Source of the DNA: Hymenobacter sp. CRA2
GTDB lineage: Bacteria > Bacteroidota > Bacteroidia > Cytophagales > Hymenobacteraceae
Length of the DNA: 64,000 nucleotides
Assembly (NCBI RefSeq): GCF_002007105.1
Contig: NZ_MVBC01000005.1
Coordinates: forward strand, 1-64,000
Reading direction: 5' to 3'
How positions within the stretch are numbered: position 1 is the stretch's first letter; every line of letters starts with the position of its first letter. Below, in pieces: positions 54,053 through 56,880 of this stretch. The notes under the pieces are model-generated. The model was given only the letters and a program-made list of their open reading frames with translations, searched no databases and was not told the DNA's origin. The translations under genes were made by a program, and so were the position numbers.

Positions 54053-54245
54053 GACTCTGGCGCTATAGTAGCAATACGGCGGTAAAGGGCTTGGCGTACT
54101 GGGCGCTACGAAGGGGGGCGCACGAGAAAAGTGGGTTTTAACACAACTAAGCGGCTTCACAAAGGGTATAGGCAGGCATTAATGTTTGAGGCCGTGGCTT
54201 ATTTCGCGTCCTCAATTGCCCTTTTCCAACCTAACCGTTTCGTCT

Positions 54246-55709
54246 ATGAAACACCTCGTAACCACCACTGTCCTGGGTCTGGCGCTGTTGGCGGCCGCCC
54301 CACGTGGACAAGCTCAAACTGCCGACAAAAAATGGGGCATCGGCCTCATGGGTAATGCTTTTCAGTACAAGGGCAACTACGGCTCGGACTACTGGAACTT
54401 CAGCAGCAACAAGTACGGCCCGGGCATCTCCATCAACCGCTACCTCTCGCCCGGCCTCGACTTGGGCCTGCACGGTAACTACGCGGAACTGAAGGGCACT
54501 CAGAACGCGGGCAACACCTTCGCCACCAACGTGGTGAACGTAAACCTGGCCCTGAAACTCAAGCTGAATAACGGCTGGGCCTTTAAGGAAGACGCCGTGG
54601 TGCAGCCCTACCTGCTGGCTGCCCCGGGCTGGACCTACACCAGCCGCGAAAGCCTTTACAACGGCGCGCGCAACGACGAAGACAAAAGCTACTTCGACCT
54701 GTTTGGCGCGGCCGGCATCAACTTCCGCCTGAGCGAGTCGGTGGGCCTGTTCGTGCAAACCGGGCAGCACATTCCGCTCAACGCCAACATCGACGGCGAC
54801 CAGAACCGCGACGACAACAAGTGGGACGACCGGTTTTTGCAGCACACCGTGGGCCTGAACATCAGCCTGGGTAAAGCCAAGGACACCGACGGCGACGGTG
54901 TGCCCGACCGCAAAGACAAGTGCCCCGATACGCCCTCCGGCGTGCAGGTAGACGAAAACGGCTGCCCGCTGGATAAGGACAAGGACGGCGTACCGGATTA
55001 CCAGGATCAGTGCCCCGACCAAGCTGGTAAAGCCGAGCTGCAGGGCTGCCCCGATGCCGACAACGACGGCGTGCGCGACTCCGAAGACGAGTGCCCCGAC
55101 CAGCCCGGCACGGCCGCGCTGCGCGGCTGCCCCGATGCCGACGGCGACGGCGTAGCCGACAAGAACGACAAGTGCCCCGATACGCCCCGCGGCACCCAGG
55201 TAGACGCCAACGGCTGCCCGCTGGTAGTGGATAGCGACGGCGACGGTGTGCCCGATAACGTGGACCGCTGTCCGAACACCCCGGCCGGCACCAAGGTCAA
55301 CGCCATCGGCTGCCCGGAAATCCCCGCCGACATCCGCAAGCTGGAGCAGCCCGTGCGCTTCCGCACCAATAGCACCCAGCTGCTGCCCTCCTCGTACCCG
55401 GCCCTCGACAAGATGGTGCGGGCTCTGAAAGACCACCCCGAGTACAGCCTGCGCATCGTAGGTCACGCCGATAGCCGCGGCACCGCGGAGTACAACCAGG
55501 GCCTCTCGGAGCGCCGCGCGGCTTCCGCGAAGCGCTACTTCACCGGCAAGGGCGTCGACCCGGCCCGTATCCCGACCCTGGGCATGGGCGAATCGGCTCC
55601 GGCCGCCCCGAACACTTCGTCGTCCAACATGGCCAAGAACCGCCGCGTTGAGTTCCGCTTCGAGTTCTACATCCCCGGTCAGGAAGGTGGCGCCACGCCC
55701 CAGCCCTAA
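54246..55709 (+). CDS. OmpA-family outer-membrane protein with five thrombospondin type-3 repeats
   Basis: A 487-aa protein. Signal peptide 1-23 (LGLALLAAAPRGQAQ). Residues about 25-215 form an eight-stranded-type barrel with a porin-like pattern. Residues about 217-360 hold five calcium-binding TSP3 repeats (DTDGDGVPDRKDKCPD, DKDKDGVPDYQDQCPD, DADNDGVRDSEDECPD, DADGDGVADKNDKCPD, DSDGDGVPDNVDRCPN). Residues about 370-480 are the OmpA peptidoglycan-binding domain (LRIVGHADSRGTAEYNQGLS, NRRVEFRFEFY). It is the standard major OmpA of Bacteroidota, joining outer membrane to peptidoglycan. No exact -7 box was seen in the 190-base upstream gap. Confidence 0.93.
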   Translation: MKHLVTTTVLGLALLAAAPRGQAQTADKKWGIGLMGNAFQYKGNYGSDYWNFSSNKYGPGISINRYLSPGLDLGLHGNYAELKGTQNAGNTFATNVVNVNLALKLKLNNGWAFKEDAVVQPYLLAAPGWTYTSRESLYNGARNDEDKSYFDLFGAAGINFRLSESVGLFVQTGQHIPLNANIDGDQNRDDNKWDDRFLQHTVGLNISLGKAKDTDGDGVPDRKDKCPDTPSGVQVDENGCPLDKDKDGVPDYQDQCPDQAGKAELQGCPDADNDGVRDSEDECPDQPGTAALRGCPDADGDGVADKNDKCPDTPRGTQVDANGCPLVVDSDGDGVPDNVDRCPNTPAGTKVNAIGCPEIPADIRKLEQPVRFRTNSTQLLPSSYPALDKMVRALKDHPEYSLRIVGHADSRGTAEYNQGLSERRAASAKRYFTGKGVDPARIPTLGMGESAPAAPNTSSSNMAKNRRVEFRFEFYIPGQEGGATPQP

Positions 55710-55732: not shown

Positions 55733-55772
55733 AAAAGCGGCGTCCCGAGCTTCGGGGCGCCGCTTTTTTTGC
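55733..55772 (+). terminator. Terminator of the OmpA/TSP3 gene
   Basis: A 16-base arm pair with one mismatch (55733-55748 with about 55753-55768) inside which AAAAGCGGCG pairs with CGCCGCTTTT, followed by more T. It lies 24 bases after the stop. Confidence 0.85.
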
Positions 55773-55794: not shown

Positions 55795-55922
55795 TCTGTC
55801 ATCCTTGATCTAGCGTCCGCAAAGCGAAGGACCTTCTCACGCCAGAACGAGTCGTTGGAACGATGGCCGTTCTTACCGCATAAGGCCCTTCGCTTTGCGG
55901 ACGCTAGATCAAGAATGACAGA
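55795..55922. repeat. Inverted-repeat element with 41-base arms (MITE-like)
   Basis: Arms 55795-55835 and 55882-55922 are reverse complements with about two mismatches. The centre is 46 bases. The arms contain GCGTCCGCAAAGCGAAGG. It is non-coding and lies between the OmpA terminator and the 21-bp tandem array. The family differs in sequence from those at 20029 and 48836. Confidence 0.75.
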
Positions 55923-55964: not shown

Positions 55965-56174
55965 GGCAGATGCCGCTAAGACCTAGGCAGATGCTATTAA
56001 GAGGTCGGCAGCACCCAGTAAGAGCATGGCAGAAGCTATTAAGACCTTGGCATATGCTATTAAGCGCAGGGCAGAGGACATTAAGACCTAGGCAGAAGCC
56101 GCCAAGAGCACGGCAGCAGACGCTGGATGCTGGTCAGTACCTGATCGGACCAAGGCAGAGCGGCTTGGAGGCCG
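55965..56174. repeat. 21-bp tandem repeat array, about ten phase-locked units
   Basis: Units of exactly 21 bases start at 55965, 55986, 56007, 56028, 56049, 56070 and 56091, each beginning GGCA and usually GGCAG, with an internal ATTAAGA-like core followed by CCT or similar. Units at 56112, 56133 and 56154 are more degenerate but keep the phase, so the array spans 210 bases. The spacing equals two DNA helical turns and seven codons. A short frame over it would give a seven-residue repeat (RQMLLRG, WQKLLRP, WHMLLSA), but it has no start signal or homology. It is followed directly by the terminator of the DUF4252 gene. Confidence 0.85.
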
Positions 56175-56188
56175 GCAACCAATAAAAA

Positions 56189-56244
56189 CCGCTGCCGCCG
56201 GGCCGAAGCAGCTCTGCAGCAGCTCCGGCCCGGCGGCAGCGGGG
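56189..56244 (-). terminator. Terminator of the DUF4252 gene
   Basis: A 16-bp GC-rich stem (about 56190-56205 with 56228-56243), followed on the minus strand by TTTTTATTGG, 16 bases after the stop at 56260. The loop of about 22 bases holds a smaller CAGCTCTGCAGCAGCTC fold. Confidence 0.85.
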
Positions 56245-56259: not shown

Positions 56260-56820
56260 CTACTTGGTGATTTCGCCGCTGATGCCCGGCAGAATCTTTT
56301 GCAACTGATCCACCTGACTTTGGGTGAAGTCGCCGCTGATGGCCAGCATCAGGAAGGAATCGGGGGCGTCGTTTTGGCGGCCGGTGGCCACTATTTCCTT
56401 GATTCGGTCGCCGGAGCGGCGCACGGCGTAGCGGTAGGCCGCATTGCCGCCGCTGGCTTCCTTGGTGGGCAGCGGCTCGTACCGTTCGCTGCGCAGCAGC
56501 CCGTCCACTTCGTTGAGCAGGCCGCGCTCGGTCAGGTCGCGGGCCCCCGACGAGGTGGGCGCGAAGGTGAGGGCGCGGATACTGCGCACCGCCGTCAGGG
56601 CCTGCACAGCGTCAGCGTCGCTGATTTTGCCGACTCGGGCCAGTACAATGCGGGTGAGGAAGTTCGGCTCGAAAGTAGTGGCGTGGAAGCCCGAGCGGCT
56701 CTCGTATTTGTTGAAAAACTCGGCCACGGTGCGGGCCGGCTTTTCGGGGCCGGCGGCGCGGCAGGCTCCCAGCCACAGCAGGACGAGCAAGGGCCAGAAA
56801 CGAAGCAGACGATTGGTCAT
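56260..56820 (-). CDS. DUF4252 lipoprotein
   Basis: A 186-aa lipoprotein with lipobox LWLGAC (Cys at 20). The mature part is DUF4252: a KYESRSGFHATTFEPNFLTR segment, ALTAVRSIRALTF, then a C-terminal ILGISGDF-like MLAISGDFTQSQVDQLQKIL. The family is widespread in Bacteroidota, of unknown function and often next to ECF sigma factors, none of which is present here. ATG 56820 gives the standard lipoprotein signal. The gene has its own terminator and lies 60 bases downstream of the hypothetical gene ending at 56881 on the same strand. Confidence 0.8.
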   Translation of the reverse strand: MTNRLLRFWPLLVLLWLGACRAAGPEKPARTVAEFFNKYESRSGFHATTFEPNFLTRIVLARVGKISDADAVQALTAVRSIRALTFAPTSSGARDLTERGLLNEVDGLLRSERYEPLPTKEASGGNAAYRYAVRRSGDRIKEIVATGRQNDAPDSFLMLAISGDFTQSQVDQLQKILPGISGEITK

Positions 56821-56880
56821 AAGCGCGTGCAAAAAAGGTTGGATGCCCCTCCTACGGGGCTACCCTGGCCCGGGATGTAG

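Follow-up and report, generated by a model that had tools for sequence, protein, structure and literature searches.

A 21-bp tandem array in Hymenobacter sp. CRA2 as a possible orphan of gene-linked, constant-period arrays in Bacteroidota

Plasmid iterons are direct repeats about two helical turns apart that lie before a rep gene and are bound by the protein it encodes. Bacterial repeats of constant size and variable sequence have also been published, without a known function. The sections of the report by Subirana and Messeguer cited here (PMC8161180) describe Bacillus repeats of 20–21 nt and 52 nt that are constant in size and variable in sequence, with the 20–21-nt type also present in Cyanobacteria, Actinobacteria, and other groups; the authors remark on two helical turns and propose a polymerising protein or RNAs. 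The 52-nt satellites of Bacillus coagulans are transcribed, according to the cited parts of PMC8161180 and PMC8625621. In Beggiatoaceae, TAACTGA intergenic direct repeats are described as numerous and as having a supposed regulatory role (PMC4679880, in the portion cited).

The array described here lies in a window of 64,000 bp (the whole stretch of DNA that was analysed) from Hymenobacter sp. CRA2, on a contig of 307,680 bases. It sits in a 550-bp gap between two convergent genes, with the following features:

54186–55709, plus strand: OmpA-family gene with TSP_3 repeats, converging on the array (ORF, Pfam; start codon uncertain)
55733–55769, plus strand: terminator-like hairpin followed by a T-run, behind the OmpA-family gene (by eye; absent from the consensus-scan list)
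55795–55922, no strand assigned: long imperfect palindrome adjoining the array, apparently a separate dispersed element (inverted self-match 80% over 130 columns)
55965–56111, no strand assigned: seven clear 21-bp units (TRF; 15–18 of 21 consensus matches each)
56112–56174, no strand assigned: three degenerate units with the phase kept (12, 11, and 10 of 21 matches)
56189–56242, minus strand: strong terminator-like hairpin between the array and the DUF4252 gene (inverted self-match 85%; the consensus terminator scan lists 56212–56194 on the minus strand, where shuffles expect 0.8)
56260–56832, minus strand: DUF4252 gene, converging on the array (ORF, Pfam PF14060; present in 8/8 genus genomes)

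The earlier note had described ten phase-locked 21-bp units at 55965–56174, seven clear and three degenerate, and a table of units against the consensus bears this out (17, 17, 16, 18, 15, 18, 16, 12, 11, and 10 matches of 21), whereas its wording of an exact phase is limited to the gapless layout, since a gapped alignment inserts one 1-base gap. Five flanking 21-base blocks match the consensus at 3–9 positions, and by this comparison units 1–7 are clear, units 8 and 9 are weak, and unit 10 is barely above background. The start word GGCAG is found in six of the seven clear units (GGCAT in the other) and in 8 of all 10, the remaining exception reading GTCAG. TRF reports a 21-bp array at 55965–56100 (score 97, 0% indels), together with 63- and 42-bp rows, the latter extending to 56121. 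The period is real when set against shuffled sequence, the check named in the earlier note: at lag 21 the array matches itself at 0.60, and at the best lag at 0.64; none of 5,000 dinucleotide shuffles reached these values (maximum 0.44 over lags 10–60).

In its 21-bp size, its non-coding position, and its retained GGCAG word, the array resembles the satellites of PMC8161180, and the eight arrays found in 1.264 Mb of its own genome (periods of 20, 21, 41, 42, or 63 bp) mostly differ in sequence. The arrays considered here thus share with those satellites, as far as the cited sections describe them, a 20–21-nt period, variable sequence, a mostly non-coding location, a kept short word, and the presence of several families per genome, so the earlier note, which knew of no described element of this form, was mistaken on this point. 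They differ in being tied to a protein family and in also having 42- and 41-bp forms; the cited sections mention no partner gene or upstream linkage for the published satellites. None of the literature matches listed linked such arrays to a protein family, in a search mostly outside subscription papers. Constant-size, non-coding bacterial repeats are already known, and the tie to a protein family appears to be undescribed. Unlike the Beggiatoaceae repeats, which in the portion cited consist of one 7-base word genome-wide, the units here are 21 bp long and each array has a different word. CRISPR arrays likewise combine a regular period with conserved and variable parts, but the window array has no unique spacers and its 21-bp units drift from one consensus, in agreement with the earlier exclusion of a CRISPR. 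The array also lacks a neighbouring Rep gene, which an iteron would be expected to have.

Arrays of this kind recur in the genus. A survey of 2.86 Mb from five genus genomes contained 22 non-coding arrays of at least three copies, 13 with periods of 21, 42, or 63 bp and 3 with a period of 41 bp, and 71 coding arrays, 14 with periods of 21 or 42 bp; one further array was mixed. The excess of 21/42/63-bp periods in non-coding arrays (13/22 versus 14/71) gave a Fisher value of 8.7e-4, and five Markov-simulated intergenic sets held no such arrays. At a threshold of at least 2.5 copies, the survey sequence held 17 arrays with periods of 20, 21, 41, 42, or 63 bp: eight in the window's own genome (G000, 1.264 Mb), six in G003 (0.8 Mb), and three in G002 (0.4 Mb); G001 and G007, sampled at 0.2 Mb each, had none. 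Their sequences are mostly unrelated, and some make dispersed families. In G002 and G003, 41-bp arrays built around a palindromic core make up a family of their own (L196, L197, L198, L199, and L201), and one pair of 41-bp arrays is orthologous (92% identity in the array and 95.6% in the 2.8-kb surroundings). Within G000, a DNA search returned no second copy of the window array. The unit pattern, at two or fewer mismatches, had 108 matches there versus 68 with a reversed control, and only the window forms a cluster among the places listed.

At the syntenic site, the array is confined to this genome. The DUF4252 gene is found in seven same-genus relatives, six of which retain the adjacent OmpA gene, and lag 21 was among the four strongest lags in none of these six syntenic gaps; in G001, which is rearranged at the DUF4252 locus, no lag-21 array occurs in 170 bp. 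Likewise, no array was found within 1.5 kb behind the DUF4252 gene at 20 named loci from Hymenobacter and one relative (the OmpA end was recognised in eight of these, and four are probably the same records as G002, G003, G005, and G006). The earlier note had named absence from all relatives among the results that would refute its reading. That absence holds at the syntenic site but does not extend to the whole genus: a related array is present at another place in G003 (L206; 73% over 90 bp, BLAST E = 3.5e-8). A search of 200 genomes of the bacterial family matched the window array in three, namely, its own genome, G003, and G117, where the match is 34 bases and not an array.

In G003, the related array precedes an uncharacterised 228-aa gene by 81 bp. 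A search with the 228-aa protein in eight genus genomes returned 13 places in five genomes, 12 of which have their own 21-bp-period array of 10–16 units ending 81–159 bp before the match; the exception is a truncated match (L217). Two of the places, L206 and L210, had first come to notice by their arrays, so that independent evidence comes from 11 places, 10 of them with an array. The family (here A1) consists of proteins of about 220 aa; a profile built from 11 of its sequences matched 24 rows in the genus and, among 296 phylum genomes, 33 rows in 14, and upstream DNA was read for 16 of the 24 genus rows and for 4 of the 29 phylum rows outside G000. Arrays with periods of 21, 42, or 63 bp were present at all five places that were read blind (G000 C9, G464 C52, G452 C12, G234 C1, and G016 C1), four of them in other genera. 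In total, 17 of 18 family places have upstream arrays, across genera of different base composition, and the linkage of array and gene is plain at the places read. As background, 10 of 2,210 surveyed genes have such an array in the 540 bp before them; these 10 comprise one A1-family gene, one 239-aa gene, and eight genes of neither kind. The units differ between arrays, including those of paralogues in one genome, and the spacing is constant.

Several further observations concern individual members of the family. The split family gene of G000 C22 (two rows) has a two-copy remnant of 42-bp period in a loose scan and none in a stricter one; this gene (C22:174467–175080) and L208 of G001, which has an in-frame TAG, are family genes in decay. 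Further stretches of 42-bp period, apparently coding, lie downstream of family genes (L206 622–975 and L208 213–407). In the distant genome G464, which has eight family rows, the one upstream region read (L220) keeps a TAGTAATG-like word, and the remainder of the unit varies. The second member in the window's own genome (L219, C9) has near-identical units and a 59-base exact internal repeat; given these units, its array was recently expanded or homogenised, unlike the window array. The 239-aa gene encodes an uncharacterised protein (G000 C41, L087:4765–5481) and has a 21-bp array (C41:169549–169746) 68 bp upstream; its protein has no detectable kinship with the A1 profile and perhaps represents a second partner family.

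For four A1 members, Pfam and NCBIfam matches all stayed below cut-off (best E values, 0.06 and 0.017). PADLOC gave weak single-member matches, and those from a PDB profile search were partial, helical, and no better than E = 0.003. The structure model is all-helical and of middling confidence (mean pLDDT 70, pTM 0.44), and Foldseek against the PDB returned nothing at E = 0.001 or better. The isoelectric point is 8.8–9.5 in 10 of 11 members and 7.0 in one. From the linkage, rather than from homology, we infer that the family protein binds DNA. The A1-linked direct repeats resemble iterons in being spaced about two helical turns apart in front of a gene, with protein binding here putative. They differ in that they lie on chromosomal or large contigs, that one genome has several paralogues, each with other units, and that Pfam detects no Rep domain in the family; two members searched in 72,556 plasmids had no match, and the family proteins had none in viral contigs.

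In our assessment, there is about an even chance that the window array is an orphan of a system made up of arrays and A1-family proteins, that is, a ladder of sites that face one side of the helix and are recognised by a sequence-specific partner. In such a class, a short word would recur every two helical turns, and the remainder of the unit would be free to drift. A sequence-specific partner, most likely an encoded protein, would bind one site per unit, and bound partners would be aligned along a single face of the helix. Where the array is linked, the partner would act on the promoter region of its own gene, and an orphan copy would act as a dispersed site. This partner is probably an A1-family protein, as suggested by linkage. 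A broader and more tentative proposal, which we rate somewhat below even, is that of an undescribed two-part system of Bacteroidota, in which diversifying helical proteins would each have their own upstream 21-bp ladder, the words would change along with the proteins, and orphans would follow their cognate. If such a two-part system exists, it would supply constant-size bacterial satellites with a partner and would explain why their period is fixed. If the protein family travels with the arrays across the phylum, the question of the fixed period becomes directly testable, and the family could be one of sequence-specific DNA binders with a quickly changing target. Several points count against the orphan reading: the family has no DNA-binding domain or fold match, and the window array lies in a convergent gap that holds no family gene; L217 lacks an array, and the split G000 C22 gene does so in the stricter scan; eight of the 10 background genes with upstream arrays are of other kinds; the matching within genomes described below draws on a single orthologous pair; and one of eight arrays departs from the column pattern described below.

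The window array is termed an orphan because no family gene lies within a few hundred bases, its neighbours being the OmpA-family and DUF4252 genes. Its unit profile resembles those of the linked arrays L206 (z = 6.0) and L207 (z = 3.6). Other likenesses are those of G000 C22:2147 to L209 (z = 7.1), of L192 in G006 to L211 (z = 6.2), and of L191, L193, and L195 in G000 to L210 (z = 4.3–5.0); L192 resembles the linked G002 array L212 nearly as well (6.1 versus 6.2). The highest of 600 column-shuffled controls in this comparison was 0.416, and the z values are uncorrected for 378 pairs. The orphans L192 and L193 occupy one orthologous place in G006 and G000, with flanks 88–92% identical. All 11 units of L192 fit the linked profile of G006 better, and the linked profile of G000 fits better for 9 of 11 units in L193, 7 of 10 in L195, and 6 of 9 in L191, the last being almost neutral (sum only +3.2). 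The word CCAAAG occurs 8, 6, 7, and 8 times in four G000 arrays and CGCAAG 4 times in each of two G006 arrays, with no overlap, except that a second G000 array near L195 has CGCAAG. This matching of orphan and linked arrays within genomes draws on one orthologous pair. Recent copying is not evident, since the shared exact stretches are just 12–18 bases.

Family members occur in the window genome at C33, at C9 and, in split form, at C22, but the closest match that this genome offers to the L206 protein has 31% identity. Only relatives are thus known to have a linked counterpart of this orphan array. Since the genome shows no gene of the L206-like clade, the window copy may be decaying, as its three weak units would suggest, or may be a promoter-free structural or decoy site. 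It may accordingly be read either as a decaying remnant or as a site for a partner unrecognised here.

The alternative that fares best is a neutral satellite, in which tandem duplication is biased towards multiples of the helical repeat, the resulting arrays grow and diverge with no function, and their phase is kept by exchange between units. We consider it rather unlikely, yet several results are in its favour. The array is missing at the syntenic site in relatives, three of its units are decaying, and the L192/L193 arrays are no better conserved (56.5% identity) than the adjoining intergenic DNA (59–62%). The indel count tells against it. Aligned to tiled units, 26 arrays had 1,139 mismatches and five indels, all five in the 12 period-21 arrays (635 mismatches; one in the window array and four in three related arrays), and the test has no power for 42-bp arrays. 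Syntenic intergenic DNA has 0.09–0.18 indels per substitution (30/234, 2/11, 46/285, 53/627, and 10/68), and simulated 21-bp arrays at a rate of 0.10, passed through the same detector, had 48 indels per 2,128 mismatches, so about 14 would be expected for 635 mismatches. Five or fewer then have a Poisson probability of about 0.005, a hand estimate in which mismatches overcount independent changes. Indels are thus modestly rarer than simulated arrays predict, with detection bias allowed for.

Columns were also more uneven than a star phylogeny permits (8e-8), and the evenness of unit pairs exceeded what tree-like ancestry allows (4e-6 Yule, 2e-11 Kingman). Of the eight arrays tested, seven have the look of star-like copies whose columns are uneven, and G000 C41:169549 contradicts this pattern; the eight were drawn from 12 period-21 arrays, leaving out L193–L195 (phase shifts) and one four-unit array. 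Taken by itself, column variance stays within tree-like neutral models, in keeping with a neutral satellite; these models were exceeded only in the joint view of columns and unit pairs. By reasoning, exchange between units within an array could mimic uneven columns with even unit pairs, as a neutral satellite would have it. The earlier idea that selection acts on the spacing of sites along one face of the helix therefore has indirect support, from the 21/42/63-bp periods of unrelated arrays, the indel deficit, and the seven of eight arrays in the column test. Neutral expansion does not predict that deficit, the arrays found at 17 of the 18 places of a single protein family in several genera, or the agreement of orphans with the linked array in their own genome.

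A less probable account, which we regard as unlikely, is that the upstream arrays are promoter-proximal sites for another regulator or RNA polymerase, with a non-binding family protein and a window array that is chance or relic. The linked arrays do end in a control-region position (81–159 bp before the gene), and the family has no recognised DNA-binding domain, but paralogues in one genome have different unit sequences, and one common regulator would thus need many specificities.

The remaining readings concern the window array itself. That it is a transcribed element acting as a repeat RNA is very improbable. The transcribed satellites of B. coagulans offer a precedent, but a structured RNA was rejected because folding of both strands was like that of shuffles (z = -0.85 and 0.48) and Rfam matches stayed below the gathering score; moreover, a sequence scan found no promoter-like site at the array, which is flanked by two terminator-like hairpins. 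Control of the neighbouring OmpA-family and DUF4252 genes is suggested by the position between them and is scarcely credible, given that the array is downstream of both genes, past their 3′ ends, and that six relatives keep both genes with no array in the same gap. A former heptad-repeat coding frame, which the earlier note had offered for a unit of seven codons and for which a 71-aa plus-strand frame is open, was rejected: the gene caller predicts nothing across this intergenic stretch, that frame has no Pfam match and is the sole ORF of at least 40 aa over the array, no codon-position pattern is apparent by eye, and similar non-coding arrays have 20- and 41-bp periods.

The palindrome at 55795–55922, which adjoins the array, looks from its sequence like a dispersed palindromic element. 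It was represented by 17 blastn pieces at 12 places of the sampled genus sequence, the query included, and similar palindromes were seen by eye in the same gap of several relatives.
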